NCBI RefSeq assembly: GCF_029278565.1 | Contig: NZ_CP119561.1 | Span: 62,001-126,000 of the forward strand | DNA length: 64,000 bases | Source: Haloarcula halophila | Lineage (GTDB): Archaea; Halobacteriota; Halobacteria; Halobacteriales; Haloarculaceae | Direction: 5' to 3' | Part shown: positions 1,520 to 20,461 of the stretch, in pieces | How the letters are laid out: the number at the start of each line of letters is the position of its first letter | Numbering within the stretch: position 1 is the stretch's first letter | Notes under the pieces: model-generated | Database searches by the model: none | Told to the model about the DNA's origin: nothing | What the model saw: the letters and a program-made list of their open reading frames with translations, nothing else | Translations under genes and position numbers: made by a program

Positions 1520-1654
1520 TCAGGCGATGACGCCGAGGGTTTCTAGTTCTTCGGTGGAGTATTCCGTGCGGAGTTCTTCCATCGAGTGTTCTTCGAGAAC
1601 CTCCGCTCGCTGTTCGTCACTCATCTCGGTCAACTCGCTGAAGCAGTGGCACAT
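1520..1654 (-). CDS. 44-residue CxC-containing small protein
   Basis: A minus-strand frame of 44 residues starting ATG at 1654. The N-terminus MCHCFSELTE carries a Cys-x-Cys pair with a histidine between, followed by a strongly acidic, helix-rich remainder ending LETLGVIA. The composition (Glu/Ser/Leu, no rare residues) and position between cbiL and znuA, facing away from znuA, make it a likely real gene. I do not recognise a family. A CHC head on an acidic helix could bind a thiophilic metal such as zinc, which would suit the location; this is inference. Confidence 0.6.
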   Translation of the reverse strand: MCHCFSELTEMSDEQRAEVLEEHSMEELRTEYSTEELETLGVIA

Positions 1655-1874
1655 TGCAACCGTATCTGGGTGCCACAGCTACTAAATGCCTGTTAGCACG
1701 CTTCTCGGACTTATGTAATACGGAATCTGAGGTAGCAACGATTAGCAATTCCAGAGCCCACGTTAGTTATTCCGGCATCGGTTAGTAAGTCCCTCCCTCA
1801 CCTAGATAGAGATTATTAACTCTACCGCACAAAATCATAGCTCTTATTATCTAGTCTATCAGTGTTAACAACAG
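1655..1874. promoter_or_regulatory. Divergent AT-rich promoter region before znuA
   Basis: 220 bp between the small CxC gene and znuA, much richer in A/T than the flanking genes. It holds several TATTAA and TTATTA tracts suited to archaeal TATA boxes, the 11-mer TATTAACTCTA at 1814-1824, and GTGTTAACAAC just before the znuA start, containing the self-complementary core GTTAAC. A closely related TGTTAACAA on the opposite strand lies in the cobW/FAD-oxidoreductase gap near 16360. No gene is seen here. Confidence 0.6.
1814..1824 (+). promoter_or_regulatory. Candidate metal-responsive element, 11-mer TATTAACTCTA
   Basis: The sequence TATTAACTCTA is 50 nt upstream of the znuA start. The identical 11-mer, in the same orientation relative to its gene, is 52 nt upstream of dppA (13889-13899, minus strand). 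It sits within AGAG-ATTATTAA-CTCT, a partly symmetric block. Shared sequence plus shared spacing suggests a common regulator site or upstream promoter element. Confidence 0.5.
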
Positions 1875-3464
1875 ATGCCTCGATACACCCGACGACGACT
1901 CGTCGCAACTGGAATCGGATTCACCACCATCGGCTCCCTCGCTGGCTGTCTCTCGAACGACGCCAGCTCTAATGATTCAGGTGGAGCCGGGCCGGAAGCC
2001 CAGTCTTCGTTCTTCGTATTCGGGGACTTGGCCAGTCAGGTTGCAGGCGACACTGCGACCGCAGAGACGCTCGTCCCGATCGGCCAACACGGCCACGGGT
2101 GGGAGCCTGGCTCCAAAATACAGGGAACGATCCTCGAATCGGATCTCTTCCTCTACGGGATGGAGGGATTCCAGCCTTGGGCTGACGACCTCGTGACGAG
2201 TCTCCGTGACGACGACGCCGATGTCGACATCGTCGCTGCTGGTGCTGGTATCGACCTCATCGAAGGCGGACACGACCACGGTCACGAAGAAGACCACGAG
2301 GGGGAACACGAGGAAGGCCACGAGGAAGGCCACGACGGCGAAGGAGAACACGGCCACGACGAACACGAAGAGGGAGACCACGAGGAGCACCACGGCGAAT
2401 CGGTCCCGTGGGAGTGGGTTGGTCTCTACCACCTCGAAGCTGGCACCTACACGTACACGTTCCACGAGGGCCCTGATCCGAAGATGCAGCTAGCCGTTAT
2501 CGCAACCGAAGAGGGCGGCGACCACGGCATTCACCACGTCGAGGAGACCGCAACCACCCTCTACGGCGACCACGACACGCACACACCGGTAGAAGGCGGA
2601 GAGACCCTCACGCCGTCCAGTGAGTCACTCTACCACCTCCAGTTCGCGGATTCCGGCGAGACGACGTTCTCCCTCGATATCGAAACGGAGGGCCACTACG
2701 TACTCTTCGCCCAGCACGCTCCCGCGGAGTTCGACGCGACGCTCACCAACAGCAGTGGGTCGGCCATCGAACCCGAAGTGACCGAGACTGCCGGCGAATA
2801 CGGACACGAGGGCGATGGCGAGCACGAAGGTGAACACGACCATGAGAGTGGAGAGGAACACGAAGGCGAGCACGAGGGAGAAAACGAACACGAAGGCGAG
2901 GAGGGACACAACCACGACCACTCCGGCGGAACGGACCCGCACTTCTGGCTAGACCCGGAGCGAGCGAAGCAGGCGGTCGACAACATCCGGAGCGGGTTCG
3001 TCGACGTCGACAGCGACAATGCCAGTGCCTACGCCGAGAACGCCGAGTCGTACCGTAATCGTCTAGACGAACTCGACGAGTCGTTCCAGTCCGCGCTGGA
3101 GGGCGCCTCGAAAGACGTCGTGTTTGTCGCGGGTCACAACGCCTTCCAGTATCTCGGCCAGCGCTACGGATTCGAAGTACAGACGCTGACGGGACTGTCA
3201 CCGGACGACCAGCCGACGCCGAAGGATATCGAGCGGGCCCAAGAGATCATTGCCGAGCACGACCTCCAGTACGTCTGCGCGGATCCGCTCGAATCCCAGA
3301 CCGCGGCGAACCAGCTCGTCGAAGAAACCGACGCCACCGAAGTCCTGCCGCTGACGCCGATTCCCGGACAGACCCAGGAGTGGGCCGACGAGGACTGGGG
3401 CTATGTCGAGATCATGGAAAACATCAATCTCGAGACGCTGAAGCAGGCCCTCGACGCAGAATGA
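1875..3464 (+). CDS. znuA: ZnuA-type metal-binding lipoprotein with two His-rich loops and an inserted domain
   Basis: 529 residues, well above the usual roughly 300 for ZnuA. The N-terminus TRRRLVATG plus the lipobox SLAGC (Cys25) indicates a Tat-exported, lipid-anchored protein. Residues about 35-130 are the first ZnuA lobe (QHGHGWEPG). A first His/Glu-rich stretch (about 130-175) is followed by an inserted beta-rich segment (about 175-305, WEWVGLYHLEAGTYTYTF), then a second His/Glu-rich stretch (about 309-350) and the C-terminal lobe starting DPHFWLDPERAKQAV. The family delivers zinc or manganese to an ABC permease; the His-rich loops favour zinc. The zinc ABC ATPase and permease follow downstream. 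Confidence 0.9.
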   Translation: MPRYTRRRLVATGIGFTTIGSLAGCLSNDASSNDSGGAGPEAQSSFFVFGDLASQVAGDTATAETLVPIGQHGHGWEPGSKIQGTILESDLFLYGMEGFQPWADDLVTSLRDDDADVDIVAAGAGIDLIEGGHDHGHEEDHEGEHEEGHEEGHDGEGEHGHDEHEEGDHEEHHGESVPWEWVGLYHLEAGTYTYTFHEGPDPKMQLAVIATEEGGDHGIHHVEETATTLYGDHDTHTPVEGGETLTPSSESLYHLQFADSGETTFSLDIETEGHYVLFAQHAPAEFDATLTNSSGSAIEPEVTETAGEYGHEGDGEHEGEHDHESGEEHEGEHEGENEHEGEEGHNHDHSGGTDPHFWLDPERAKQAVDNIRSGFVDVDSDNASAYAENAESYRNRLDELDESFQSALEGASKDVVFVAGHNAFQYLGQRYGFEVQTLTGLSPDDQPTPKDIERAQEIIAEHDLQYVCADPLESQTAANQLVEETDATEVLPLTPIPGQTQEWADEDWGYVEIMENINLETLKQALDAE

Positions 3465-3682
3465 GCGACACCACGTCTGGCGACACGGAACCGGAGTGGG
3501 ACGGGAACGCCGAGCCCGGTCCGTCCGAGAGCCCTCGTTCGGGATTGATGGCACTGGTTGTCGGCCCTGCGGAGAGACCCGTCTGTACGATCTATCCGCC
3601 GGACGTGGCTGTTCCGTATCGGACGACGACCTGGATTACGGCGTACGGGAACTCGTTCGTCGACCTCGACGACTACCGATGA
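3461..3682 (+). CDS. Small conserved haloarchaeal protein inside the znu operon
   Basis: 73 residues; its ATG overlaps the znuA stop (ATGA) and its own stop overlaps the znuC start, so it is translationally coupled on both sides. Residues 30-73 hold the recognisable part: a PVCTIYPPD stretch, then TTWITAYGNSFVDLDDYR. Small halophile proteins ending in a similar TWITA...SFVDL motif are known as a domain of unknown function (I recall DUF7511, not verified). No membrane segment or signal is visible. Its coupling within znuABC hints at an accessory role in metal import. Confidence 0.7.
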   Translation: MSDTTSGDTEPEWDGNAEPGPSESPRSGLMALVVGPAERPVCTIYPPDVAVPYRTTTWITAYGNSFVDLDDYR

Positions 3683-4452
3683 CGACAGCAACGACGGAGA
3701 GGGAACGGGCGGGAGACCCTCTCATCAGCGTCGACGACGTCACATTCGGCTACGGAGAGATCCCGGTTCTCGAGTCGGTGTCGATCGACGTCGAACCCGG
3801 ATCCTTCCTCGGACTGGTCGGGCCGAACGGCAGCGGCAAGAGCACGCTGCTCGACCTGATGCTCGGTCTCCGACGGCCCGACAGTGGAACGGTTTCGCTG
3901 TTCGGCGAACCCGCCCACGAGTTCGACGCCGGTGAGCGAATCGGATACGTCGCACAGGACGCGACGAAGGCGGCGCGCGATATGCCGGTCACGGTTCGAG
4001 AAGTTGTCGAGATGGGGCGGTACCCGCGGCGGCTCTTCGGCCGATTCTCGACAGCGGACCGGCGAGCGGTCGAGGAGGCGCTGGAACAGGTCGGAATCAC
4101 AGATATCGCGTCTCGTCGAGTCGGCCGACTGTCCGGTGGCCAACGACAACGGGTCTTCATCGCCCGTGCGCTCGCCTCGGAGGCCGACCTGCTCGCACTC
4201 GACGAACCGACGGTCGGCGTCGATGCCGAATCCAGAGAGGAGTTCTACAGCCTCCTGCACGACCTGAATGCGACCGGGCTGACCGTCATCCTCATCGAAC
4301 ACGACATCGGGGTCGTCACCACCTACGCGACGGATATCGCGTGTCTCAACCGCGAACTGTACTTCGACGGTGACCCCAGTACGTTCGTCGAAACGGACGC
4401 CCTCGCGCAAGCGTACGGGACCGATCAGCACGTCCTCCACCACGACCACTGA
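3679..4452 (+). CDS. znuC: Zinc-type ABC transporter ATP-binding protein
   Basis: 257 residues. Walker A is GPNGSGKST near residue 47, the ABC signature is LSGGQRQRV near residue 150, Walker B is LLALDEP and the switch histidine lies in LIEHDIG. It closely follows the layout of metal-type (ZnuC/MntB) ATPases. The ATG at 3679 overlaps the preceding stop; longer in-frame starts upstream would read through the small gene in another frame and are not needed. It powers uptake with the permease at 4455. Confidence 0.9.
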   Translation: MTTATTERERAGDPLISVDDVTFGYGEIPVLESVSIDVEPGSFLGLVGPNGSGKSTLLDLMLGLRRPDSGTVSLFGEPAHEFDAGERIGYVAQDATKAARDMPVTVREVVEMGRYPRRLFGRFSTADRRAVEEALEQVGITDIASRRVGRLSGGQRQRVFIARALASEADLLALDEPTVGVDAESREEFYSLLHDLNATGLTVILIEHDIGVVTTYATDIACLNRELYFDGDPSTFVETDALAQAYGTDQHVLHHDH

Positions 4453-4454
4453 CC

Positions 4455-5510
4455 ATGATGCAATCCTCCTCACTTGACGCAGGCGTGCCGTTCGACGAAG
4501 TGACCGCTGTCCTATGGATCGGTGGCATACTCATCGACGGCGTCGAGTGGTTCCTCGACCACATCTTCGGTCCCGGAATGGACGTGTTGGCCGACCTGCT
4601 CGGCACACCGATGCTTGGATATCCCTACATGCAGCGAGCCTACCTCGCTGCGGTATGTATCGCTGTCATCGGCCCGATCGTCGGGACGTTCCTCGTCCAT
4701 CGAGAGATGGCGATGATCGGCGACACCCTCGCACACACAGCCTTCGCCGGCGTCGCCGTCGGACTGTTCCTCAATTCGGCCCTCTCGCTCACGCTGTCCC
4801 CGCTGCTCACCGCGTTCGTGGTCGCAGTCGTCACGGCGCTGCTCGTGGAGTTACTCGTCGAACACGCCGGGGCGTACAGCGACACCTCGCTGGCGATCGT
4901 CCTGACGGGCGGGTTCGCCGTCGGCAGTATCCTCATCACTGCAACCGACGGTGGCATTGCGGTCGGCATCGACGCCTACCTCTTCGGCAGTCTGGCGACC
5001 GTCTCGACGGAGAACGTCGGGATTCTCGTGTTGATGAGCGTCCTCGTCGGCAGCCTCGTCACGCTGGCGTATCGGCCACTCCTGTACGTCACGTTCGATG
5101 CGACGGCCGCCCGCGCGGCGCGACTGAATGTCCGCCTGTACAAACGCCTCATGGTCGTGCTCACGGCGATGGTCGTCGTTAGCGCGATGCAGATCATGGG
5201 CGTCATTCTGGTCGCTGCGATGCTTGTCGTTCCGGTCGCCGCCGCGGCGCAGGTCGCCGGGAGTTTCAAGCAGTCTATCTGGTTGGCGGTCCTTGCTGCC
5301 GAGTTCGCGGCGATAGCCGGTGTGACACTATCGTACGTCTATGGAATTGCGGCCGGTGGCTCGATTGTCGTCGCGGCGATTGCTGTGTACGCTGTCGCCC
5401 TCGGCTTCCAGGGGCTGGCGCATCGTCTCCCAACCGTTCAACGGCTCCGAAGCCAACGGCCCGGACAGACCCGAGAAGGACTCGAAGCCGACGGAGGCGA
5501 GCGAGAGTGA
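4455..5510 (+). CDS. znuB: Zinc-type ABC transporter permease
   Basis: 351 residues with about eight or nine hydrophobic spans and the ABC-3 family pattern: FLVHREMAMIGDTLAHTAFAG after the first spans, a long hydrophobic run, and the later IMGVILVAAMLVVPVAAA. The C-terminal 40 residues are hydrophilic. The start lies 2 bp after znuC. Together with ZnuA and ZnuC it forms the importer in the cytoplasmic membrane. Confidence 0.9.
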   Translation: MMQSSSLDAGVPFDEVTAVLWIGGILIDGVEWFLDHIFGPGMDVLADLLGTPMLGYPYMQRAYLAAVCIAVIGPIVGTFLVHREMAMIGDTLAHTAFAGVAVGLFLNSALSLTLSPLLTAFVVAVVTALLVELLVEHAGAYSDTSLAIVLTGGFAVGSILITATDGGIAVGIDAYLFGSLATVSTENVGILVLMSVLVGSLVTLAYRPLLYVTFDATAARAARLNVRLYKRLMVVLTAMVVVSAMQIMGVILVAAMLVVPVAAAAQVAGSFKQSIWLAVLAAEFAAIAGVTLSYVYGIAAGGSIVVAAIAVYAVALGFQGLAHRLPTVQRLRSQRPGQTREGLEADGGERE

Positions 5511-6799
5511 CCGTCGACGGACTGGACACCGATCACACGATGAGCGGGCCAAAGTCCTACGAGTACGTGATCATCGGTGGCGGTATTCACGGAACGTGCC
5601 TGGCGAACTATCTCCTCACCGAGGGAGCGTACAGACACCAGGACCTCTGTCTCGTCGAACCTCGCGAGCAGTTACTCGCGTCGTTCGAGACCAAGGCTCG
5701 TCAGTGCGGAATGCGAACGCTCCGGTCGACGTTCGTCCACCATATCGGCACAGAGCCGTTCTCGCTTGAATCGTTCGCGGAGGGGGCAGGTCGGGAGGCC
5801 GAACTCGTCTCGACGGAAAACTATCCAAATCGACCGACGCTGGAACTCTTTCTCGACCACGCTCGAAACGTCATTGACCGGCGTGGTATCCACGAGTGTC
5901 ACCTCCAGTCGAGGGCGACGGGAGTTACCAGGACTGGGGCAGGCGATCGACTCGAAGTACAGACGGATGCTGGGTCGCTCGAAGCTCGCCACGTCGTGTT
6001 AGCCATCGGACTCGGTGGCTCGCGAACGCTCCCCACGTGGGGGACGTCACTCCCGGACGACGCCCCGCTCGTTCACGTCTGGTACGACGAGTTCGACCCG
6101 ACGACAGCAGCGGAATTTTCGGGGCCGACGTTCGTCGTTGGGGGCGGTATCACCGCTGGGCAACTTGCCTGCTGCCTCTCGGAACACACAGACGTGACAC
6201 TCCTTTCGCGTCACGACCTCGATATCGAACTGACCGAAGCCGACCCGTACTGGATCAACTGGCGACACATCGAACAGGAGATTCACACGCTCCCGCCGGG
6301 GTCGAAGGCCCGTCTTGACCGGATTCGGGCCGCCCGCAACGACGCGACGATTCCGCCGTACGTCGAACGTCGACTGGACGAAGCCCGTGACTGTGACGAC
6401 CTCGAACTCCGACGCGGCGAGATCGCGTCTGCATACGCGACAGACGAGGGATTACTGGTGCGGTTCGACGACGGCACGACCGCAACGAATGCACAAGTTG
6501 TCCTCGCGACCGGACTCGATCCAGTCCCAGAGCATCCATTAGTCGGATCCGTCGCCGAGTCGTTGTCACTCGAGCGCGGGGCTGGCGGCTTTCCCGTCCT
6601 CGACGACCGGACGCTCGCGTGGCGAGGGACCGATGGCAGCCGTTCTGCGGTGTACGTTTCGGGAGCGCTCGCAGAACCCAGCGTCGGTCCTTTCGCCCGG
6701 AATATCGTCGGTGCTCGTCGAGTCGCAGAACGGCTCCTCGCATCAGGAGCCGGGGCCGGTTCACGGGGAGTACCGTCGGCCCCCAGAGGAAGGTCCTAA
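5507..6799 (+). CDS. FAD-dependent oxidoreductase of the znu operon
   Basis: 430 residues from a GTG at 5507 that overlaps the znuB stop; an ATG at 5540 (MSGPKSYEY) is an equally good start. The first dinucleotide fold is VIIGGGIHGTCLANYLL, a second is FVVGGGITAGQLACCLS near residue 210, and ATGLDPVPEHPLVG marks the end of the NAD(P)/FAD part. It resembles FAD/NAD(P)-binding proteins related to N-hydroxylating flavoenzymes, but I cannot name the substrate. Tight coupling to znuB suggests work in the same metal-limited state, for example making or reducing a metal ligand; that is inference. Confidence 0.75.
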   Translation: MTVDGLDTDHTMSGPKSYEYVIIGGGIHGTCLANYLLTEGAYRHQDLCLVEPREQLLASFETKARQCGMRTLRSTFVHHIGTEPFSLESFAEGAGREAELVSTENYPNRPTLELFLDHARNVIDRRGIHECHLQSRATGVTRTGAGDRLEVQTDAGSLEARHVVLAIGLGGSRTLPTWGTSLPDDAPLVHVWYDEFDPTTAAEFSGPTFVVGGGITAGQLACCLSEHTDVTLLSRHDLDIELTEADPYWINWRHIEQEIHTLPPGSKARLDRIRAARNDATIPPYVERRLDEARDCDDLELRRGEIASAYATDEGLLVRFDDGTTATNAQVVLATGLDPVPEHPLVGSVAESLSLERGAGGFPVLDDRTLAWRGTDGSRSAVYVSGALAEPSVGPFARNIVGARRVAERLLASGAGAGSRGVPSAPRGRS

Positions 6800-6800
6800 G

Positions 6801-7184
6801 ATGCCTTCGAACGACCTCACGCTCGCCTTCTCGTTACAGGCACTCGAGAAGCTCGCACGACCGAAACGAGCATTCGAAGACGCCGCAACGTGGACCAGCT
6901 ACATCGGGATCGTCTCCTCGGAGTCGTCCTTCGTCGAACGACGGCGAGTACGAGAGGCGGGATACCCCCAGGACTTCTTATCGGGTCCGCGTTCAATCGA
7001 AGAGGCACTCTCGAGTCTTCGAAATCACTTCGAGACGGAACGGTACGTGTTCGTCGGGACGGACGAGACCGACGGGATCGTAGAGACAGTGCCTGAGTGG
7101 TCCTTCCAATCACTGACCGACGCTGCAACGGCTGCGGACTGGCGGCTTGAGAGTGCGTCAACAGTTGATGACGATTGGCCCTGA
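6801..7184 (+). CDS. DUF7124-like small protein, copy 1
   Basis: 127 residues starting ATG at 6801, one base after the previous stop. Conserved blocks are DLTLAFSLQALEKL at the start, AATWTSYIGIVS, ETERYVFVGTDE and TDAATAADWRLES. The copy at 19409-19819 has the same four blocks in the same order, so they are paralogs. Each copy ends a putative metal operon. I recall this halophile family as DUF7124; function unknown. No membrane span. Confidence 0.75.
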   Translation: MPSNDLTLAFSLQALEKLARPKRAFEDAATWTSYIGIVSSESSFVERRRVREAGYPQDFLSGPRSIEEALSSLRNHFETERYVFVGTDETDGIVETVPEWSFQSLTDAATAADWRLESASTVDDDWP

Positions 7185-7226
7185 CAGAGAAGGGGAGTTC
7201 CAGCGAACTCTCGGCGAGCTATTCGC

Positions 7227-7379
7227 TCAGTGGTTCTCGTGGATGTGGTCGCGCAGCGCGTCGGTCTCCTCGAACTTCTCGTCGCACTCGGCACACGTGT
7301 TGTGGTGAAGCGCGACGTGCTGGGTCACGCCAGCAGCGCTCTGGAACTGTGCATCGCAACTGGAGCAGGTGTACGACAT
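7227..7379 (-). CDS. 50-residue two-finger C2H2 zinc-finger protein
   Basis: A frame of 50 residues from ATG at 7379. Two ligand sets are visible: YTCSSCDAQF followed by HVALHH, and NTCAECDEKF followed by HIHENH, each a C2H2 finger with two residues between the cysteines. Haloarchaea encode many such tiny zinc-finger proteins, several of unknown role. It is convergent with the preceding gene and sits just beyond the znu operon, so it could be a zinc-dependent sensor or store; that link is only positional. Confidence 0.8.
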   Translation of the reverse strand: MSYTCSSCDAQFQSAAGVTQHVALHHNTCAECDEKFEETDALRDHIHENH

Positions 7380-7539
7380 TACATTAACAACTGAGGCCCT
7401 GAGTCACTAAAAGGGTTATTAAAAATGAAGTCAGTAGAATTGCTACGCAGTATTAATTCGCTCACCAGAATAACTAACCGCCCACCAGACGGTTCTACAT
7501 AATACGTTCCGAGAGAATGCGTCGGCGTCGGCTTGTAGT

Positions 7540-8235
7540 TTACCTCGACCCGAAGAACGTTCGCATATATTCGTTTGCGTACTCGACACGGTGTCGTCGT
7601 TCGCTATGGTCGATCTCTTCGACGCCGACCGGCACCTCGCGGTCGTATTGTTCGTAGTAGCCTTCGGGTGCGACCCAATCGTTGTAGAATTCGGGGTCGA
7701 CTTCTTCGACGATCTCGAGTGCCACGCGGGCACCGTCGCCTGCGTTGACGATCGCCTGGTGGTGGGTGTCGGTGATCCGGCCAGCGGCGTACACGCCGTC
7801 GACGTTGGTCTCCCCTCTGTCGTCGGTCGGAACCACGGAAACGGAACCACAACCGGATTCGGGCACCGTCTCGACGTCCAGCGCTTCGAGATAGTCGCCA
7901 TCGGACCAGGAAGCCGCAAGTAGTCGATCGGTGGTGATCGACCCTTGGTCGAGCGTGAGAACGAAGCCGCTCTCCGCGACCGCTGCAGAAGCAACCGACT
8001 CCTCAATCATTGTACAGCCCGCCTCGCGAGCGTGTCGTTTGACCAGCTCCAACAACGACTGGGGTTCGACCCCTGCCGGAAAGCCGAGGTAGTTCTCGAC
8101 GAACGCACATTTCTGGAGCGTCGAACGGCCGTTCGATACGACGACGGTGTCGAGCCCGGCCCGGCTACAGAACACTCCGGCCGAACAGCCCGCTGGACCG
8201 CCGCCAACAATCGCTACGTCGTAGTTCTCAGTCAT
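7540..8235 (-). CDS. Thioredoxin-reductase-like flavoprotein lacking the NADPH domain
   Basis: 231 residues from ATG at 8235 (MTENYDVAIV). The FAD fold VAIVGGGPAGCSAGVFC and the closing GVYAAGRITDTHHQAIVNAGDG match thioredoxin reductase, but the middle NADPH-binding domain and its redox Cys-x-x-Cys pair are absent: the chain runs from the first FAD half directly to the second. Residues 180-231 form an extra charged tail (DPEFYNDW...). Short proteins of this sort are found in halophiles; electron donor unknown. The much longer upstream extension of the frame is read through the ABC gene and is rejected. Confidence 0.75.
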   Translation of the reverse strand: MTENYDVAIVGGGPAGCSAGVFCSRAGLDTVVVSNGRSTLQKCAFVENYLGFPAGVEPQSLLELVKRHAREAGCTMIEESVASAAVAESGFVLTLDQGSITTDRLLAASWSDGDYLEALDVETVPESGCGSVSVVPTDDRGETNVDGVYAAGRITDTHHQAIVNAGDGARVALEIVEEVDPEFYNDWVAPEGYYEQYDREVPVGVEEIDHSERRHRVEYANEYMRTFFGSR

Positions 8236-8263
8236 CGTTTTCAGTGAATCTGACAGTTGCGTT

Positions 8264-12216: not shown

Positions 12217-12300
12217 CGCTCGTCAGTGCCCTCCTCCAGATGGTAACGGGCCTCCATCGGACGAGAAACCGAATTACTCCCGTTCTCGTTGGCGTTCATA

Positions 12301-13836
12301 TCAGTCGCTACGGGAAATATCGGACCATTCGATCATGTTGTCGACCGGATGCCAGTCGATGCCGGAAACATCGGCCTGTCGACCGAAGACGGACTCGTTG
12401 TAGTACAGGGGGACGACCGCGCCGGTATCGACGACCCGTTGCTGAACGTCGCCGTAGTGCTCGCGCTTCGCTGCAGTCGTCTCGGCCCGGTACCCTTGTT
12501 CGATGAGGCGGTCGACTTCGGCGCCGGGGTTGTAGACGCCAGTCCCGTTCTGTTCGTGGAGCTTCCGATTGTCACTCCCCTCCGAGTGGAACATCGCCCT
12601 GACAAGGTAATCACAGGCGGCACTGTTCGACCCGAAGCTGACGAGCGTCAGGTTCGCCTCGCCTGACGTGAACGTGTCGTAGAACGACGCGGGGTCGACC
12701 TGTCGGATCTCGCTCGTGACACCGATCTCCTCAAACCAGCCTGAGAGCACCTGTGCGATCGTGGCGTCGTCGGTGTTCTCGCTGTTGACGAGGATCGACA
12801 GCGGTTCACCCCTGTATTTGGATTCCTCCACCAGCTCCTGTGCCCGGTCCCTGTCCGGGCCATACGTCGGAAGCTCATCGTGGATCGCCCACGGGATGAT
12901 CGACGAAAACGGGCCTCGCGCCGGCTCACCGATCCCGTTCAGGACGTTCTCGACGATCTGCTCCTGATCGACGGCCCAGTTGAGGGCTTTGCGCAACCGT
13001 TCGTCGTCGGTCGGTGACTCGTAGAGGTTGACAGCGACGAGCCCCGCACTGGGGGTTAGATTGGTTTCGATCGCTGTCCCGGTCGCATCCCCGACGGTTG
13101 CAGCCTGACTCTTCGGGACTTTCTGTGCGACGTCGATCGATTCGTCCTGTAGCGACAGAACGCGCGTATTGGGGTCTTTGACCCACTCGAAGGTGAGTTC
13201 CGAGGGGTTCGCCCTTCCGTCTCGGTAGTTCTCGTACGGAGTGAGTGTGATCGACTGTTCCTCCTCGACGTTCGCGACTCGGAAGGGACCTGTTCCGACC
13301 GGTGACTCGGACGCGTCGGGGTGTTGGATACCGAAGTAGTGGTGAGAGATCGTCCCCGGGAACGCGGGGAACGGCTCCGTCGTTTGGAACTGAACGGTAG
13401 TGTCGTCTACCGCTGTGACGCCGTCCGGTTCGACCCCAATCCAACCCGGGACCCACGAGAACTGTTCGAACACCCGGTCGAACGAGCGGACGACGGCCTC
13501 GGCGGTTAGGGCGTCACCGTTGTGAAACGTAACGCCCTCCCGAAGCGAAAACTCCCAGGTCGTCTCGTCGACGGCCTCCCACTCGGTGGCCAGCAACGGT
13601 GCGGTCTCCATCTCGTCCGTCGTGTCCACGAGTGGCTCATACACATGCGTGTAGTACGGGGTTATCCCGCCGTAGGCATCCCACTTCTCCTCCGTCGGAT
13701 CTCGGGCCAGAGCGACCGTGAACGACTCTTTGTCGGCTCCATCGCCGGCGAACACCGACTGACAGCCGGCAGCAGTAGCCGTCGCGCCAACTGCAAGGCC
13801 ACCGAGTAACTGGCGTCGTGAAAGCGTCTGTTGCAT
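12301..13836 (-). CDS. Dpp/Nik-type ABC substrate-binding lipoprotein
   Basis: 511 residues from ATG at 13836 (MQQTLSRRQLLGG). The N-terminus has a twin-arginine motif and the lipobox TAAGC near residue 27, so it is a Tat lipoprotein. SBP family 5 blocks follow: YYTHVYEPLVDTTDE, LREGVTFHNGDALTAEAVV, SPVGTGPFRV and the RVLSLQDESIDVAQ region. The ligand is not decidable: this family carries peptides, nickel, and metal-chelate complexes. The promoter shares an exact 11-mer with znuA, which points to a zinc or metal-chelate ligand. Confidence 0.88.
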   Translation of the reverse strand: MQQTLSRRQLLGGLAVGATATAAGCQSVFAGDGADKESFTVALARDPTEEKWDAYGGITPYYTHVYEPLVDTTDEMETAPLLATEWEAVDETTWEFSLREGVTFHNGDALTAEAVVRSFDRVFEQFSWVPGWIGVEPDGVTAVDDTTVQFQTTEPFPAFPGTISHHYFGIQHPDASESPVGTGPFRVANVEEEQSITLTPYENYRDGRANPSELTFEWVKDPNTRVLSLQDESIDVAQKVPKSQAATVGDATGTAIETNLTPSAGLVAVNLYESPTDDERLRKALNWAVDQEQIVENVLNGIGEPARGPFSSIIPWAIHDELPTYGPDRDRAQELVEESKYRGEPLSILVNSENTDDATIAQVLSGWFEEIGVTSEIRQVDPASFYDTFTSGEANLTLVSFGSNSAACDYLVRAMFHSEGSDNRKLHEQNGTGVYNPGAEVDRLIEQGYRAETTAAKREHYGDVQQRVVDTGAVVPLYYNESVFGRQADVSGIDWHPVDNMIEWSDISRSD

Positions 13837-13888
13837 CGTGATTAGCAATCCTAGAGCGAATAGTAATAAGAGTTGTTAATAACGACTA

Positions 13889-13899
13889 TAGAGTTAATA
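13889..13899 (-). promoter_or_regulatory. Candidate metal-responsive element, second copy of TATTAACTCTA
   Basis: On the minus strand this reads TATTAACTCTA, 52 nt before the dppA start, matching the znuA site at 1814-1824 in sequence, orientation and spacing. A neighbouring GTTATTAACAAC lies between it and the gene, similar to GTGTTAACAAC before znuA. Confidence 0.5.
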
Positions 13900-14006
13900 C
13901 GTCGCATAGTCTGATCGGGAGTGGGCCTCGACCATTGATTCGACTGTTCGTTGGACGGACGACGCAGTAGGAAAAGAAATCGAGGAGAGGATATAGGCAA
14001 ACGGAG

Positions 14007-14774
14007 TCAGGTCCTGGGTGGTCGTGCACGGGCGAGGACGTGTCCGTCGTGACAGCGGCAGTTACACCGGAAGAAGTCTGCAGCGTAGCCCTTTTCGCGG
14101 AACGATCGAGCCACTGCCAGAGCCGATGCGTCACTCTCAACCTCGACATTGACAATCGATTGGTGACCACGGTCGAGGGTCGCCATCGCTTCGGCGGTGT
14201 CAAGCCGTTCGGGCTGGAGCGACTCCAACAGTATCGCCTCAGTCGTCCACTCTCCTAACTTTGGAACCGTTTCATCAGATATCGCCGCTGCGAGGGTGGT
14301 GTCTTCGTAGAAGTATTCCGCGAGTTCGGGACCGTCGAAATCCCTGAGTCTGTCACGGTAGCGCTCCTCGAAGCGATTGACGACGAGAAACACGTCGGAG
14401 TCGACCTGGTCTATCACGCGCTCGTAGGCAGCCACACGGTCCAGCATCGCTGGTGTCACGACGACGAAGACAGTATCGAGTGCGTCACCGGCAGTTTCGA
14501 GAGAATCCGTTCCCGGGGAGTGATCGACGACTGTCCAGTGGACGCCCAGCGGACCGACGTTCTCAGGCGAGGCCGACGGCTGTTCGAAAAACGTTGCGGC
14601 TTCCCCGACGATTGCAACGTCGGTCCGTTCGGAGAGTCGATTCGAGACCATCGTGGCGACGGTCGTTTTACCAGCGCCTTCGGGTCCAACGAACCCGATT
14701 CGCTGACGATCCACGTGGCGTTGTAGATCCTCGGTCGGCGTCTCCGTCGAGGGGGACTTCGGTTCAGAACTCAT
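14007..14774 (-). CDS. P-loop ATPase/GTPase (SIMIBI class) with a Cys/His-rich tail
   Basis: 255 residues. Walker A is FVGPEGAGKTTVATM near residue 28, and WTVVDHSPGTDS provides a DxxPG-like Walker B. This is the layout of the MinD/CooC/CobW superclass of metal-enzyme accessory NTPases. The last 19 residues open with CNCRCHDGH (Cys237, Cys239, Cys241, His242, His245), an obvious metal-binding cluster. It overlaps the HEAT-like gene by 4 bp, downstream of the CobW GTPase. I infer a metal-delivery NTPase; the exact family is not recognised. Confidence 0.75.
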   Translation of the reverse strand: MSSEPKSPSTETPTEDLQRHVDRQRIGFVGPEGAGKTTVATMVSNRLSERTDVAIVGEAATFFEQPSASPENVGPLGVHWTVVDHSPGTDSLETAGDALDTVFVVVTPAMLDRVAAYERVIDQVDSDVFLVVNRFEERYRDRLRDFDGPELAEYFYEDTTLAAAISDETVPKLGEWTTEAILLESLQPERLDTAEAMATLDRGHQSIVNVEVESDASALAVARSFREKGYAADFFRCNCRCHDGHVLARARPPRT

Positions 14775-15037
14775 AGCTGTGCTTGCTCTCTGATGGCGGG
14801 GTCGACCGCCCGGCTCTCGGAAATCGTTTCGAGCGCCTCCGTCGCGCCGAGTGCTTTGAGTTCCCTAACAGCCGCTCGCCGGAGAGGGCCAGCGATGCCG
14901 TTGGTCTGCGTGAGTGTGCTGAGTTGGTCGACGGCACCTATCCGTCTCAGCTCACTGACCGCCTCTCGGCGCGTCTCACGGGAGGCAGACTTTGCGACGG
15001 ACTGCTGGAATAGGGTTCGTTTGCTCGGCATGGTCAA
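14771..15037 (-). CDS. Small HEAT-repeat-like protein
   Basis: 88 residues, nearly all helical, with two similar repeats: RREAVSELRRIGAVDQLSTL and LRRAAVRELKALGATEALETI, the second about 35 residues after the first. That is the pattern of short HEAT/PBS-lyase-type repeats, usually protein-binding scaffolds. Its start overlaps the CobW stop and its stop overlaps the next start, both by 4 bp, so the three genes are translationally coupled. It may bridge the two NTPases. Confidence 0.7.
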   Translation of the reverse strand: MTMPSKRTLFQQSVAKSASRETRREAVSELRRIGAVDQLSTLTQTNGIAGPLRRAAVRELKALGATEALETISESRAVDPAIREQAQL

Positions 15038-16302
15038 TCAGCCAACCCCACTTCTTCCGCGTCGTCAGCATCTGTCGCTTCCGTCTGTTCGTCCGCCGTT
15101 TCGAAGTCGAACGTCGGGAAGCGGTCCTCGAATGCATTCCAGTCGGCATCCATCTCCCTGTCGGTCAGTGTAGCTGCATCGAGATCCGTTCGGAGCGCAT
15201 CGTGGTCCATGTCGGTACCGATGAGGACGAGTCGTGACGAGCGGTCGCCGTACTCGGGATGCCAGTTGGCTTCCAGTTCCGGCGACGCTTCGAGGTACTG
15301 GGCCTGTTCGTCCTCGGGAAGCGCTGCGATCCAGCGCCCTGCAGGTTCGAGTCGGATCGACTGTCCAGCGATGTCGATCCCCAGTGCCATATCCTCACGC
15401 CCCGCGAGCCAGAAGTGGCCCTTCGACCGGACCACATTCGTCGGAAACTCGTCCAGCAACTCGGCGAATCGTTCGGGGTGGAACGGTCGGCGGGACTCGA
15501 AAACGAACGAAGTGACGCCGTGCTCCTCCTCGGCAGACTCGTGGGGTTCCTGCAGTTCTTGCATCCAGCCCGCGGACTGACTCGCTGCTTCGAAATCGAA
15601 CGGACCAGTATCGATGATCGTGTCCGGGTCGACGACACCGTGTTCGGTCCGGATGATCTCCGCGCGCGGTTGCAGCACTTCGATCATCTCTTCGATCTCG
15701 TCGAGCGTCTCCTCGTCGACGAGGTCACACTTGTTCAACAGGAGAACGTCACAGAACTCGATCTGTTCGACCAAGAGGCTTCCAAGGTCCTTCTCGGTGT
15801 CGCCGTCCATCAGCGATTCCTTCGAATCGAACGTCGTCCAGAACTGGTGGGAATCGACCACGGTGACCGTCGTGTCGAGTTCGTAGTAGTCCATCACCTC
15901 GATGCCGGTCTCCTCGTAGAACTCCGTGGAGTCGAGGTCTCCCTGGTCGAATCCCATGGTGAGCGTCTGGGCGACGGGCAACGGTTCGGCGACGCCAGTC
16001 GACTCGATGACCAGGTAGTCGAACTCACGGGCTTGTGCGAGCTTCGCGAGTGCGTCCAGCAGGTCGCCGCGTAGCTCACAGCAGATACAGCCGTTCGACA
16101 GTTCGATCAGGTCCTCGTCGTCCTCCGAGATGTCCGAGTGTTCGGCGACGCGCTCGGCGTCGACGTTCACCTCGCCCATGTCGTTGACGAGGACCGCGAC
16201 GTCCAGGTCCGTTCGCGTGTTCAGGAGGTTGTTCAGCACGGTCGTCTTGCCCGCGCCGAGGTTGCCGCTCAGCACGGTGACGGGAATCGTCTCTCGACTC
16301 AT
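15034..16302 (-). CDS. CobW/COG0523 G3E-family GTPase (metal chaperone)
   Basis: 422 residues. Walker A SGNLGAGKTTVLNNLL at residue 10, the family metal motif NGCICCELRGDLL near residue 70, the ESTGVAEP loop, and LLLNKCDLVDEE as the NKxD guanine motif. The second half carries the CobW C-terminal domain (TSFVFESRRPFHPERF). COG0523 proteins use GTP to load metal, often zinc under limitation. The acidic tail lacks a His-rich stretch. The gene is first in the cobW-HEAT-NTPase operon and divergent from the FAD/S14 operon across 64 bp. Confidence 0.9.
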   Translation of the reverse strand: MSRETIPVTVLSGNLGAGKTTVLNNLLNTRTDLDVAVLVNDMGEVNVDAERVAEHSDISEDDEDLIELSNGCICCELRGDLLDALAKLAQAREFDYLVIESTGVAEPLPVAQTLTMGFDQGDLDSTEFYEETGIEVMDYYELDTTVTVVDSHQFWTTFDSKESLMDGDTEKDLGSLLVEQIEFCDVLLLNKCDLVDEETLDEIEEMIEVLQPRAEIIRTEHGVVDPDTIIDTGPFDFEAASQSAGWMQELQEPHESAEEEHGVTSFVFESRRPFHPERFAELLDEFPTNVVRSKGHFWLAGREDMALGIDIAGQSIRLEPAGRWIAALPEDEQAQYLEASPELEANWHPEYGDRSSRLVLIGTDMDHDALRTDLDAATLTDREMDADWNAFEDRFPTFDFETADEQTEATDADDAEEVGLAD

Positions 16303-16366
16303 CTGTTATTAAGACTAGAGAGTATATTATTTATAATTGGCTATCCACTACCCTATATTGTTAACA
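16303..16366. promoter_or_regulatory. Divergent promoter between cobW and the FAD/S14 operon
   Basis: 64 bp of very AT-rich sequence with TTATTAAGAC and TATTATTTATAA tracts, enough for back-to-back archaeal TATA boxes, and TTGTTAACA near 16359, whose core GTTAAC also occurs just before znuA. The shortness implies co-regulation of both operons. Confidence 0.55.
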
Positions 16367-17515
16367 GTGACATTCGAAGAAGCCCGTAAACACGAGTCGC
16401 TCGACGTAGCGATTGTCGGGGCAGGTGCCGCAGGCGTCGGTCTTGGGGCCGTCCTCGCGGATCTGGGTCTCGACTCCTACGCCATCCTCGAGCGAGGCGA
16501 AGTCGGGGCGTCGTTCCAACAGTGGCCAGAAGAGATGCGCCTCATCACGCCATCGTTTCCCAGCAACAGCTTCGGCTGCCGCGACCTCAACGCCGTCACC
16601 ACTGACACCTCACCCGCATTTGCACTCGACCGTGAACACCCGACCGGCGGAGAGTACGCCGAATATCTCCAAGGAGTCGTCGAGTTTCACGACTTACCCG
16701 TCCGAACCGGTGTCGAGGTGGAATCGGTACAGCGACACGACGACGGATTCATACTCCACACGTCTACTGGCGTCATCCACAGTCGATTCGTCATCTAGGC
16801 AGCCGGGCAGTTCGGGCAACCGAACGACGATCCGTTCCCCGGCGCGAACCACTGCGTCCACAACTCCCGAGTCGAATCCTGGAGTGCGTTCGCCGACGAG
16901 TGCGTCGAGGACCCCATCGTCGTCGTCGGCGGGTACGAGAGCGGTATCGACGCGGCACTTGCACTTGCCGACCTGGGTCACGAAGTGCTCGTCGTCGACG
17001 AGGACGGGCCGTGGCAGTTCCGGGGACCGGATCCGAGCGAAGTACTCTCCCCATACACGAGCCAGCGGTTGCAGGACGCATTCGAACACGACGCACCGAT
17101 CGCCCTCGAAGACGGAATCCGAGTCGAGCGCGTCGACGTCGAGGAGGGGACGTTCGACGTACTCGGGACCGACGGCGCGTCGTTTAGGACACGGAATCGG
17201 CCAGTGCTCGCGACTGGATTCGAGAGCGGACTCGGCCTCGTCGACGAATACTTCGAGTTTGAGAATGGCCAGCCCCAGTTGACCGAACGGGACGAGTCGA
17301 CCATCACTCCCGGCCTGTTTCTCGCCGGTCCAAAGGTCGCGCACAACGGCCAGCAGTTCTGCTTCATCTACAAATTCAGACAGCGCTTCGCCGTCGTGGC
17401 TGACGAAATCGCCTCCAGACTCGACGTCGACCGCACTCCCCTCGACGAGTACCGTGAGAAGGGCATGTTCCTCGAGGACTTGTCCTGCTGCGAACCCGAC
17501 ATGTGCGACTGCTAA
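16367..17515 (+). pseudogene. FAD/NAD(P)-dependent oxidoreductase interrupted by an in-frame TAG
   Basis: Read from a GTG at 16367 (TTG at 16337 is another option), the frame encodes 382 residues but has TAG at 16796-16798, codon 144. Both halves remain in the same frame and look intact: VAIVGAGAAGVGLGAV and the GASFQQWPEEMRLI block before it, and AAGQFGQPNDDPF, IVVVGGYESGIDAALAL and the tail [13 protein letters not shown] after it. The family normally has Trp at this spot (VVWATG/AAG), so one G-to-A change in TGG explains the stop. The C-terminal cysteines are distinctive. It leads an operon with S14 and feoB-like genes. Confidence 0.75.
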
Positions 17516-17517
17516 TC

Positions 17518-17703
17518 ATGACACGAGATACTCCGCAGAAAGACAGTGGAACTGAGCAGTCGAACGATTCGAGAGACGACGACCGACACGTCTGCCGGAT
17601 GACGGGACGCGAACAGGGTCTCGTCGGTAAGTACGACATCTGGCTCTGCCGGCAATCGTTCCGGGAACTGGCTCCGAAGATGGGGTTCAAAAAATATGAC
17701 TGA
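17518..17703 (+). CDS. Ribosomal protein S14 (uS14) with incomplete zinc site
   Basis: 61 residues from ATG at 17518, 2 bp after the preceding stop. The C-terminal half [17 protein letters not shown] and MGFKKYD identify archaeal S14. The classical zinc site is two Cys-x2-Cys pairs; here they read CRMT (Cys26, Thr29) and CRQS (Cys44, Ser47), so each pair has lost one ligand and zinc binding should fail. It is not in a ribosomal protein cluster but between a flavoprotein and a FeoB-like gene. This fits the bacterial pattern of zinc-free ribosomal paralogs used under zinc starvation. Whether the main S14 of this species keeps all four Cys must be compared. Confidence 0.85.
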
Positions 17704-19405
17704 CGCACGGAACGTCACTGACAACGTCCCATCGACCGAGAACGACGGGAAGGAAACCGTCGTGGTCGTCGGCAAGGAGAGCGTCGGGAAATCGGAACTC
17801 GTCGCTGGCCTCTCCGGGACGACGCCGACGACCGGGAACTTTCGCGGAACGACCGTCGATATCGAGCGATACGAGTCAGACGAGTTCGTCCTCGTCGACA
17901 CACCCGGCATCCTGCTCGGGACGGACACCGAGACCACTCGGACGGCGATCAGCGCCGTCGAAGAGACCGAGACCGTGTTACTCGTCGTTCGCGCGACGAA
18001 CATCGACGACGATCTCGAAGACCTGCTGCCGCTGGTGCAGGGAAAGGTCGGCGCCATCGCAGTGACGTTCTGGGACAAAGTGGAGAATTCGACCGAAGCA
18101 CGCACTGAACTGAACGCGCTCGCCGACGATCTCGGAGTTCCGCTCGCTCCAGTGGACGCGCGAAACGTCTCCCGCGTCGCAACTGACGGCGGCGGCACTG
18201 CAATCGACGGAACCGACCACAAGCAGCTCGTCAACGCGCTCCGCGACGTCGACGAGTTCCCGGGGCGGGTTCACCGACAGACGGGGATTCATCTCGACCC
18301 GCCGGAGACGATTATCGAACATCCGCTTCTCGGTCCGTTCGTCAGTATCGTCTTGCTCCTGTTGCCAGCCGCGGTCGCAGTTCACTTCGCAAACGCTGTG
18401 GCTGCCGAACTCTCTCCCCGAGTGAGTTCCCTCCTGGAACCCGCAGTCCAGTGGGCCAACGATCTTCCAGGACCCCTCGCTGCAGTGTTGGGTGGAGACT
18501 ACGGCCTGCTCTCGATGGGGCCGTTCCTGTTCGTCTGGGCTGGGCCGACGATTCTCATCTTTGCGGTCTTCATGGCCGCCTACAAGAAGAGCGGGCTCGT
18601 TACGCGAATCACGGCGTCACTCCACCCACACCTTCGGCGCGTGGGTCTCACCGGTCGGGATCTCGTTCGAGTGGTCATGGGATTCGGTTGTAACGTCCCG
18701 GCGGTCACCAGCACTCGAGGATGTTCGGACTGTACGCGTCGGACGACAGTCTCGGCGATTGGGTTCGGCTCGGCCTGCTCGTATCAGTTCCCCGCGACGC
18801 TCGCTGTGTTCGCAGCCGTCGAGATGCCGTGGCTCGTTCTCCCGTACGTCGGGATTCTCACGGTCACGACACTCGTCTATGCGCGCCTGATCGCACCCGA
18901 GCGTGCGCGAACAGCGTCACTCGCCACCGAAAACCGTGCGTTCCTCCAGTGGCCGAACTGGCAGTCTGTGTGGCGCGAGACCAGAACCGTGGTTCGGAGT
19001 TTCTTCCTGAAGGCGCTCCCTGTCTTCGCCGGGATCGTCCTCGTCGCATCACTGCTGGCCTACTTTGGAGTCCTGGATGTGATGGGTGAAGCTCTCGGAC
19101 CAGTGATGGGACTGTTCAACCTCCCCGGTGAGACAGCACTTGTCGTCGTGATGGGGTCGATCCGGAAGGACGGTCTGCTCCTGTTACAGTCGGATGGCCT
19201 CAGTGCGACGCTGTCCGCAATGAGCCCCATACAGGTACTGACCGCCGTCTACCTAGCCGGGGTGCTACTTCCGTGCCTGGTGACGGCGATTACGGTCGCG
19301 AAGGAGCTCTCCCCGAGGTACGCTGGTCGGATGCTGCTCCGGCAGGCAGCAGCTGCCATCGGTTTCTCGCTACTCATCGGATGGGGTGGTGCCGTCCTCT
19401 TCTAA
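17696..19405 (+). CDS. FeoB-like GTPase-permease
   Basis: 569 residues. The N-terminal G domain has [13 protein letters not shown] as Walker [11 protein letters not shown] as switch I and VDTPG as G3, but the NKxD motif is not seen (TFWDKVE at that place). From about residue 205 it is membrane-embedded, with [15 protein letters not shown], the Feo core motif, near residue 330, and two Gate-like domains. FeoB imports Fe2+; with S14 and zinc importers adjacent, zinc is also possible. No FeoA is adjacent. Its ATG overlaps the S14 stop by 8 nt. Confidence 0.82.
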
Positions 19406-19408
19406 TCG

Positions 19409-19819
19409 ATGACCACCGACACCATGACGCTCGCGTTCGAGCTTGCGGCGCTTCAGCAGGTTCGTGAGCCACAGGCGGTTGTCGTCGATGCACGCCGATG
19501 GGCGCAGAACGTCGGTCTCGTCTCGATCGATTCCTGCGCCGCTCACGCCTTTAGTGCCAAGCACCTCATTCGTCGAGACTTCCAGATAGCGCCGACCACC
19601 TCGAACTTCCAGCACCTCTCTAGCCGGGTCACGACCGAGAGACACGTTCTGGTCGGAGAGGCTCCTGACCGTCCAGATTACCTTCCTCAGCAGCACTGGG
19701 AGTATTTCGCTTTCGCGGACGCTGCGAGTGCTGCCAGCTGGGAACTCGACAACAATGAGACCACGTCACGGAAGCAGGTGACCGCCTGGTTAGCTCGTGT
19801 ATTCAGGAGTAAAGGGTGA
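19409..19819 (+). CDS. DUF7124-like small protein, copy 2
   Basis: 136 residues, 3 bp after the FeoB-like stop. TMTLAFELAALQQV, ARRWAQNVGLVSI, TTERHVLVGEAPD and ADAASAASWELDN align with the copy at 6801-7184. Both are last genes of metal operons, so the family may be a recurring partner of metal transporters in halophiles. Function unknown. Confidence 0.72.
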   Translation: MTTDTMTLAFELAALQQVREPQAVVVDARRWAQNVGLVSIDSCAAHAFSAKHLIRRDFQIAPTTSNFQHLSSRVTTERHVLVGEAPDRPDYLPQQHWEYFAFADAASAASWELDNNETTSRKQVTAWLARVFRSKG

Positions 19820-19885
19820 GAGATACCGTTAGGAGAGGGCCTCAAGAGTAAAGATAGCCGAGTATCAGATGTCTATCGTCTGGAT

Positions 19886-20263
19886 CTATCCCTGGAATCC
19901 AGTGAGGTTCCAAGCATCATCTGAACTCCCGGAGGAATCGAATTCGGGGGCGCTAATCAGGACGAAGGCACTTTCCTCCTCACCGTTCCTGATCTGCCTC
20001 GTTGCCTCGGGCGCAATCCAGACAGCATCTCCCTCTTCAACAGGAACCGATTCTTGATCAACTCGAACTTCGGCAGTCCCACTGACCAACACGTAGACTT
20101 CCTCGTGCTCGTCATCGACATGGTCGTGTGGTTCGCTGTTCCATCCTGGTGGACATCGGGAGAAGGTCACGCCGACCTGTCGACAGCCGAGCGGTTCACT
20201 CAGGAAATGCTTCGCATCTGAAACCTGTTCGACGTCCTCGTAATTCACCTTCCGATAGCTCAT
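19886..20263 (-). CDS. Cupin domain protein
   Basis: 125 residues with a single cupin barrel: PHDHVDDEHEEVYVLVSGTAEV is the first metal motif (histidines and glutamate), and GDAVWIAPEATRQIRN covers the second half, where the usual histidine is replaced by Arg/Gln. Such small cupins are often metal-dependent isomerases or sensors; substrate unknown. Upstream, GTATTAATAC at 20285-20294 is a perfect 10-bp dyad followed by TCTATG, close in look to the znuA/dppA element. Confidence 0.8.
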   Translation of the reverse strand: MSYRKVNYEDVEQVSDAKHFLSEPLGCRQVGVTFSRCPPGWNSEPHDHVDDEHEEVYVLVSGTAEVRVDQESVPVEEGDAVWIAPEATRQIRNGEEESAFVLISAPEFDSSGSSDDAWNLTGFQG

Positions 20264-20461
20264 ACCAGAAGTTCCGAGATGAAGGTATTAATACTCTATG
20301 TCGAATTAGCTATTATTGATAACAATGGGAAGAATAGTAATATTCGCTTTTCTAGTAGTCCGAGATCGTCGTGTAAACGAGCAGTATCTAAATCCGCGGG
20401 TAGCGCCACAGAACAGACGTTTCCGCGGCCACTTTTGTCGAACCAATCTTATCGAGAATTA

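Follow-up and report, generated by a model that had tools for sequence, protein, structure and literature searches.

The systems closest to the metal island of Haloarcula halophila described here are the bacterial Zur regulons. The island lies in a window of 64,000 nucleotides (C3:62001-126000 of the genome) and shares with them znuABC, a COG0523 protein of the YciC/ZigA type and a ribosomal protein S14 that has lost zinc ligands; sister islands add HisI. It differs in that the genome has no Fur-family match, the putative operator is a long-spaced dyad of 30 bp, and the archaeal S14 keeps two of its four cysteines. To our knowledge, exchange of a zinc ribosomal protein is known only from bacteria. 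The papers cited below by PMC number are represented by excerpts. For Methanosarcina, Haas et al. (2009, PMC2770081) predicted a regulon of znuABC and COG0523 under the DtxR-like ZntR, which is likewise archaeal and under a non-Zur repressor, but the excerpts name no ribosomal paralogue. A second, distant S14 (rps14b) is given as an open issue for Natronomonas pharaonis and for some 20% of the haloarchaeal genomes (PMC8305020), and an S14 paralogue lies on a Natrialba magadii plasmid (PMC3353972). Like the S14 of the island, these are second, distant copies, but in the excerpts they appear without function, zinc link or operator, and for N. pharaonis the likeness is that of the published description rather than of an alignment to the protein itself. 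In Halobacterium NRC-1, loss of sirR raises zurM, zurA and ycdH, treated as Mn(II) uptake genes, with cbiN/M/Q as predicted targets (PMC3600143). That set resembles the genes carrying our dyad, but SirR is Mn(II)-dependent, and neither S14 nor COG0523 is named in the excerpts. Bacterial NikR operators are inverted repeats of 27-28 bp (PMC545781), with two half-sites about two helical turns apart as in the dyad; the candidate dyad differs in its half-site sequence and its total of 30 bp. In Haloferax volcanii, a small RNA acts on znuC1 (PMC8155600).

The island is likely a zinc-starvation regulon, carried on a plasmid and controlled by a regulator other than Zur, and it has probably spread horizontally. 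When zinc is plentiful, a metal-loaded repressor outside the Fur family would sit on dyads of the type GTTATTA-N16-TAATAAC at the znuA, zigA/oxidoreductase-S14 and dppA promoters. When zinc is low, the repressor would release them; ZnuABC, beside which the genome showed no other Znu importer, would then scavenge zinc, and the COG0523 GTPase would pass what little there is to client enzymes. Canonical S14 would give way in new 30S subunits to the paralogue, which lacks two of the four zinc ligands, and ribosomes would so need less zinc. Gene content, ligand loss, co-occurrence and a shared dyad are seen directly, and from them we infer that zinc is the signal, that control is by repression and that the paralogue enters the ribosome. 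The features on which the argument turns are listed here, the dyads with the score of a matrix described below.

1812..1841, operator-like dyad in the znuA promoter, score 16.1
1843..1872, operator-like dyad in the znuA promoter, score 23.9, the best in 64 kb
1875..3464, + strand, ZnuA with two His-rich stretches (PF01297, 1e-61, 209 bits against a cut-off of 29)
3679..4452, + strand, ZnuC ATPase
4455..5510, + strand, ZnuB permease (ABC-3)
13872..13901, operator-like dyad in the dppA promoter, score 16.9
15034..16302, - strand, COG0523 GTPase, ZigA-like (cobW 3e-49, CobW_C 1e-25)
16305..16334, operator-like dyad in the gap that separates zigA from the divergent oxidoreductase-S14 genes, score 19.9
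16367..17515, + strand, Pyr_redox_3 oxidoreductase gene, interrupted at 16796 by an in-frame TAG
17518..17703, + strand, S14 paralogue without zinc ligands 2 and 4
20312..20341, weak operator-like dyad before a cupin gene, score 16.0

ZnuA combines a PF01297 match above cut-off with a His-rich loop, and it is the sole ZnuA gene of the genome, the remaining matches being the terminal duplicate of the contig. The COG0523 protein has cobW and CobW_C domains and a CICC, which we take to be the CxCC motif of the family. Its best NCBIfam model is ZigA at 429 bits, short of the equivalog cut-off of 600.

The original prediction had an S14 missing two zinc ligands, and the chromosomal copy bears this out. 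The chromosomal protein reads ESCQRCGR...WLCRQCF, or CxxC...CxxC, whereas the window protein reads HVCRMTGR...WLCRQSF, or CxxT...CxxS, so that ligands 2 and 4 are gone. One genome thus holds a ligand-losing homologue beside a canonical four-Cys copy, as expected of a C-minus paralogue. In our comparison set of 194 Halobacteria genomes, H. halophila included, an S14 match is found in 193, of which 21 hold two, and Cys2 and Cys4 are absent from all 21 second copies. The variant of locus L060 additionally lacks ligand 3 (Cys3). Canonical S14 keeps four cysteines in the copies inspected, from H. halophila and 12 single-copy genomes, and the rest of the domain is, by eye, conserved in the variants. 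Close copies of the variant (74-93% identity) are found in other families or genera, and S14 matches occur in 9 of 72,556 plasmid records (Halorubrum, Haloferax, Halocatena, Natrialba and others), with the cysteines inspected in a part of these. Such a distribution suggests that the variant spread horizontally, between families. Loss of the zinc finger is also described for ribosomal protein L43e in many haloarchaea (PMC8305020). No zinc link of an archaeal S14 paralogue was found among the top-ranked results in the open-licence literature.

The S14 variant keeps company with ZigA. A ZigA-clade gene is present in 34 of the 194 genomes, including all 21 that have the variant and that span five families (Fisher 1.3e-19, uncorrected for descent). 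The clade comprises 31 full-length matches above 570 bits and three long partial ones, a cut set after the match list had been inspected; without the partial matches, ZigA is in 19 of the 21 variant genomes against 31/194 overall. The two genes lie within ~10 kb of each other in 11/21 genomes, and in the other 10 no ZigA was found near the variant in ~10 kb on each side (one draft contig gave 7 kb on one side). We compared 60 named ZigA-centred loci, several of them ended by contig ends, with 18 COG0523b-centred loci as controls. The S14 variant is in 29/60 of the former and 0/18 of the latter. Relatives of the FAD/NAD(P) oxidoreductase (at least 38% identity) are in 50/60 ZigA-centred loci, a 50-aa zinc-finger protein in 28/60, the FeoB-like permease in 25/60, the HEAT-like protein in 24/60 and the P-loop protein in 10/60. 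On plasmid pHG2 of Haloferax gibbonsii, the order is ZigA, oxidoreductase, S14, FeoB-like, DUF7124 and hisI, with a metal ABC importer farther on, and the top site of the matrix in a 24-kb stretch directly precedes the first gene of that importer. The hisI gene, at L276:14352-14729 after the S14-FeoB-like-DUF7124 run and likewise in loci L048, L070, L045 and L068, also belongs to the islands of Haloferax marisrubri and Haloprofundus marisrubri, which makes three named genomes; its cysteines are kept, by eye. HisI paralogues belong to bacterial Zur regulons and retain their cysteines there (PMC2770081). Plasmid pNMAG02 of Natrialba magadii carries a ZigA-like GTPase, FAD/NAD genes and the S14 variant. 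There the matrix scores highest at a site flanked by a FAD/NAD gene and the ZigA-like gene that precedes S14; the next-best site lies before the P-loop (ATP-binding) protein.

The genes are further joined by an operator-like dyad. Half-sites of the type GTTAATAAC are seen in ZigA promoters, and half-site words occur in 54/64 ZigA, 20/33 zinc-finger, 16/20 ZnuA and 1/25 COG0523b promoters. Near-matches to GTTAWTAAC number six in the window against 2.3 expected, and five of the six are in island promoters. The dyad GTTAWTAA-N15-TAATAAC was read by eye from ZigA promoters and searched in the 194 genomes with one mismatch. It gave 203 strand matches (106 forward, 97 reverse) in 111 genomes, compared with 42 (19 + 23) for the reversed pattern. 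From the matches listed, 110 sites were fetched (30, plus 80 of 87 other places) and assigned by homology to ZnuA-like (58), ZnuC (2), SsuA-like (10), ZigA (7), FAD/NAD (4), CbiM (2), CrtI-like (4) and other genes (23). The 58 lie at most 90 bases from a ZnuA-like start; one ZnuC site is at 384 bases. It is the ZnuA count that is independent, since ZigA promoters supplied the search pattern. The spacer-less word GTTAWTAAC was rejected as a definition of the regulon, being found at three places in the genome only: the dppA promoter, the inside of a transposase-like frame and before a secreted-looking protein.

The matrix was built on 48 of the 58 ZnuA sites, none of them from H. halophila, with the central 12 positions ignored. 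In the 64-kb window, the five separate sites that it ranks highest are at 1843 and 1812 (znuA), 16305 (zigA/S14 genes), 13872 (dppA) and 20312 (cupin). Column-permuted matrices (n=2000) put five of their top five in the listed promoters in 2 cases and four in 40. Other gap lengths likewise hit the island, because several half-sites are there. Over the compared loci, a score of at least 16 is reached in 62/64 ZigA promoters (60 permuted matrices: mean 0.8, maximum 15) and in 19/20 ZnuA promoters, which may overlap the training sites. The same holds for 40/70 FAD/NAD and 20/25 oxidoreductase promoters, many of them within the ZigA intergenic region, and for 4/30 S14 promoters, most of which are inside operons. 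The Ni/Co-type genes reach it in 2/9 (CbiM), 13/25 (COG0523b) and 7/11 (NikR4) promoters, with weaker scores for the last two, and HEAT, ZnuB, ZnuC, COG0523c and others give 0. ZigA promoters score best with a gap of 12 in 40/64 cases, of 15 in 17 and of 9 in 4. Membership of the 50-aa zinc-finger protein in the dyad regulon is doubtful, as its promoters favour a 25-base gap (20/33), not the 12-base gap. For the ten S14 variants lacking a nearby ZigA, five reach 16 and eight reach 10 within 900 bp upstream, compared with 4 and 13 of 570 control stretches. A putative shared operator thus lies upstream of znuABC, COG0523 and the ribosomal paralogue, as in a Zur-type regulon. We take the dyad itself to differ from the Zur box. 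In four genomes (L157, L162, L163, L166), CrtI-like carotenoid genes also have dyad-like sites ~115-160 bp upstream of them; these sites are either a separate AT-rich palindrome or the mark of a shared regulator.

No description of the dyad was found among the top-ranked results in the open-licence literature. The abstract of a 2015 study of archaeal DtxR regulons by Leyn and Rodionov reportedly names ZntR (zinc) regulons and a comparison with Halobacterium data, so a znu motif may have been published for haloarchaea before. The novelty claimed beforehand for an archaeal equivalent of the Zur regulon is reduced: it is partly pre-empted by ZntR of Methanosarcina (PMC2770081) and by the S14 paralogue reported in PMC8305020, while the link of S14 to zinc and the dyad were not found in the literature searched.

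As to the regulator, the original prediction held that no Zur-like gene is in the window. None was seen in the window region read, and the whole genome has no match to the FUR/Zur family at E 0.001, where 13 of 14 control genomes match. Our best guess is a chromosomal protein of the DtxR/SirR type, a tentative choice that we rate a little short of even. There are two DtxR-family genes on the chromosome, at C1:187067 and C1:1260411; the latter encodes a short protein that has a run rich in Cys close to its end (CPDCFSAEEDVC), which makes it a possible zinc-sensing candidate. A NikR-type protein is the less probable alternative. Since the NikR family is nearly universal (193/194 genomes), presence and absence cannot decide on it. 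In an alignment with solved NikR, NikR1, which is encoded upstream of the window, retains H, HxH and C, and so do the chromosomal copies aligned; these are presumably the ligand positions. NikR2 has HTC where the other aligned NikR proteins have HxH. No NikR gene travels with the ZigA-S14 core, NikR1-4 each being in 2-3 of the 60 ZigA-centred loci compared with 5-14 of the 18 COG0523b-centred ones. Before one chromosomal NikR type (L262, L264, L272), a different dyad is seen by eye, ATAATAC-spacer-GTATTAT, which may be NikR's own site. No regulator was recognised by eye among the reading-frame families common to at least 4 of the 58 ZnuA-dyad loci. A small zinc-finger regulator, compare Brz (excerpts of PMC2253796), is a remote option.

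The island also extends ~12 kb upstream of the window, into genes on which the original prediction was silent: four NikR-like regulators, an SsuA-like importer, a CbiM-type importer and two further COG0523 genes. This Ni/Co-type segment occupies positions 442-11844 of C3:50000-69000, with CbiN/Q/O named by eye. Two modules appear to meet here, ZigA-S14, joined in this genome by ZnuABC, and NikR-CbiM-COG0523b/c, because the S14 variant is confined to the ZigA-centred loci of the two sets and NikR1 is in 14/18 of the COG0523b-centred ones. A single NikR-type dyad for the whole island was considered and rejected, given half-site words in 1/25 COG0523b promoters and weaker matrix scores (13/25 at 16 or more). 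Because the COG0523b promoters are poor in half-site words and weaker in score, the Ni/Co genes probably have a site of their own, related to this dyad.

A number of results weigh against a zinc-starvation regulon and have to be set beside the evidence for it. The dyad also precedes SsuA-like (10/110) and CbiM (2/110) genes, and 27/110 sites precede CrtI-like (4) or unclassified (23) genes. The ZigA dyad counts are partly circular, their pattern having come from ZigA promoters. The window sites score 16.0-23.9 and the training sites 23.3-35.1, with only the 1843 site in range, so the window dyads must be called degenerate. The cupin promoter joined the promoter list after its hit had been seen. 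At a score of 16 or more, the matrix finds 3/9 DppA, 2/8 cupin and 1/33 of the 50-aa zinc-finger promoters, and two unlinked S14 loci, L050 and L064, score low (4.1 and -4.8), the start having been wrongly extrapolated in both; half-site words do precede the S14 gene of L050. No dyad was found before the DtxR genes (best scores -10.5 and 3.9 in two 3-kb stretches), and ten sampled NikR stretches give at best 15.5 (L266), 11.0 (L267) and 10.8 (L269), the rest 8.3 or less. The S14 variant retains two of the four cysteines. ZnuA is in just 16/60 ZigA-centred loci, and the Dpp binding protein in just 5/60, so the Dpp importer is a loose member. The neighbourhood comparison across Halobacteria that the original prediction called for put S14 and the 50-aa zinc finger near ZigA in about half of the loci, and ZnuA in fewer. 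Of the joint zinc-limitation set it proposed, the recurrent core, the pairing of S14 with ZigA in 21/21 genomes and a putative operator shared with ZnuABC stand, and the Dpp importer does not stand as a firm member. The island is better called a broader metal island, because it continues upstream into Ni/Co-type genes with NikR and because the dyad also precedes SsuA-like and CbiM genes.

These results give some weight to a general divalent-metal regulon, responsive to Mn or to Ni/Co through SirR/DtxR or NikR, in which ZnuABC, Dpp, CbiMNQO and COG0523 serve several metals and zinc is at most one signal. The dyads before SsuA-like and CbiM genes would fit it, as would a Dpp binding protein nearest to NikA, the four NikR genes and CbiM-type genes that adjoin the island, the weaker dyad scores before COG0523b (13/25) and NikR4 (7/11), and the action of Halobacterium NRC-1 SirR on zurM/zurA/ycdH with its predicted cbi targets (PMC3600143). 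We still consider it unlikely, since ligand loss in 21/21 S14 paralogues, a His-rich ZnuA, a ZigA-type COG0523 and HisI fit zinc over Mn or Ni. It is more doubtful again that the S14 paralogue is non-ribosomal or functionally unrelated and is merely carried with metal genes on plasmids. Its ribosomal role is marked unclear in PMC8305020, and copies 74-93% identical in other families or genera are what mobile DNA would leave. Against mere carriage, no ZigA was found near 10/21 variants, yet all 21 genomes have one; several of the unlinked S14 genes have the dyad in their promoters, and the rest of the S14 domain is conserved by eye. That metal genes clustered by chance with no common control seems very improbable. 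Plasmids do gather transport genes, and a transposase-like frame (by eye) adjoins at 20279-22069, but the conserved neighbourhood, the S14 variant in 0/18 control loci and the operator results speak otherwise.

The zinc-starvation regulon can also be put in a wider form, for which we see the balance as even: a Zur-independent zinc regulon throughout Halobacteria with its own long-spaced dyad, in which rps14b would be a zinc-sparing S14 stand-in on plasmid islands and the sensor a DtxR- or NikR-type protein re-tuned to zinc. The combination of importer, G3E chaperone, zinc-poor ribosomal protein and HisI copy suggests the same solution built in another domain without Zur. The prediction that follows is that a zinc ribosomal protein is exchanged in the archaeal ribosome. 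If true, this would be the first zinc-sparing ribosomal paralogue with regulatory logic in archaea, and the class-wide candidate operator could be used to find the archaeal zinc sensor. It would also explain the presence of a second, distant S14 in roughly one haloarchaeal genome in five, a question left open in PMC8305020.

The other genes of the island are as follows.

1520..1654, - strand, 44-aa micro-protein MCHCF..., conserved in related islands
5537..6799, + strand, FAD/NAD(P)-binding oxidoreductase
6801..7184, + strand, DUF7124 (PF23439) protein, copy 1
7227..7379, - strand, 50-aa protein with two C2H2 zinc fingers
7540..8235, - strand, thioredoxin-reductase-like flavoprotein (Pyr_redox_2; finer name by eye)
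8264..12216, - strand, DppF, DppD, DppC and DppB of an oligopeptide/nickel-type ABC importer (DppC named by eye)
12301..13848, - strand, SBP_bac_5 binding protein (dppA), nearest the NikA model, 199 bits against a cut-off of 600
14007..14774, - strand, P-loop protein with CNCRCHDGH near its end
14771..15037, - strand, small HEAT-repeat-like protein, below Pfam cut-offs
17696..19405, + strand, FeoB-like GTPase-permease with FeoB_N and Gate domains, 125 bits against a feoB cut-off of 316
19409..19819, + strand, DUF7124 (PF23439) protein, copy 2
19886..20263, - strand, cupin-domain protein

The coordinates and family matches in the two lists agree with the gene content first proposed: ZnuABC with a His-rich ZnuA, a second importer of the Dpp/Nik type (8264-13848 on the minus strand with its binding protein), the COG0523 GTPase, the P-loop protein with a Cys/His tail, the FeoB-like permease, tiny Cys proteins and two paralogues of a small protein, now DUF7124. 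A motif search requiring the Cys/His tail finds the P-loop protein in the window and eight other loci, one with an altered residue. The TAG-broken oxidoreductase, which had gone unmentioned, directly precedes the S14 paralogue; at the position of its TAG, 11 other loci from 8 distinct genomes are all free of a stop.

The replicon, C3, has 363,408 bases, with a terminal duplicate of ~65.5 kb in which gene pairs repeat at an offset of 297,884; the two locus pairs compared are identical. From this layout, C3 would be a circular plasmid of ~298 kb. Its far end differs from the window and has a fragmented ZnuA match, apparently through an error in assembling a circular plasmid. In island loci, 18 reading frames belong to the MCHCF family, overlapping copies from one genome among them. 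The transposase-like frame at the island edge has a mechanical start that overlaps the cupin promoter.

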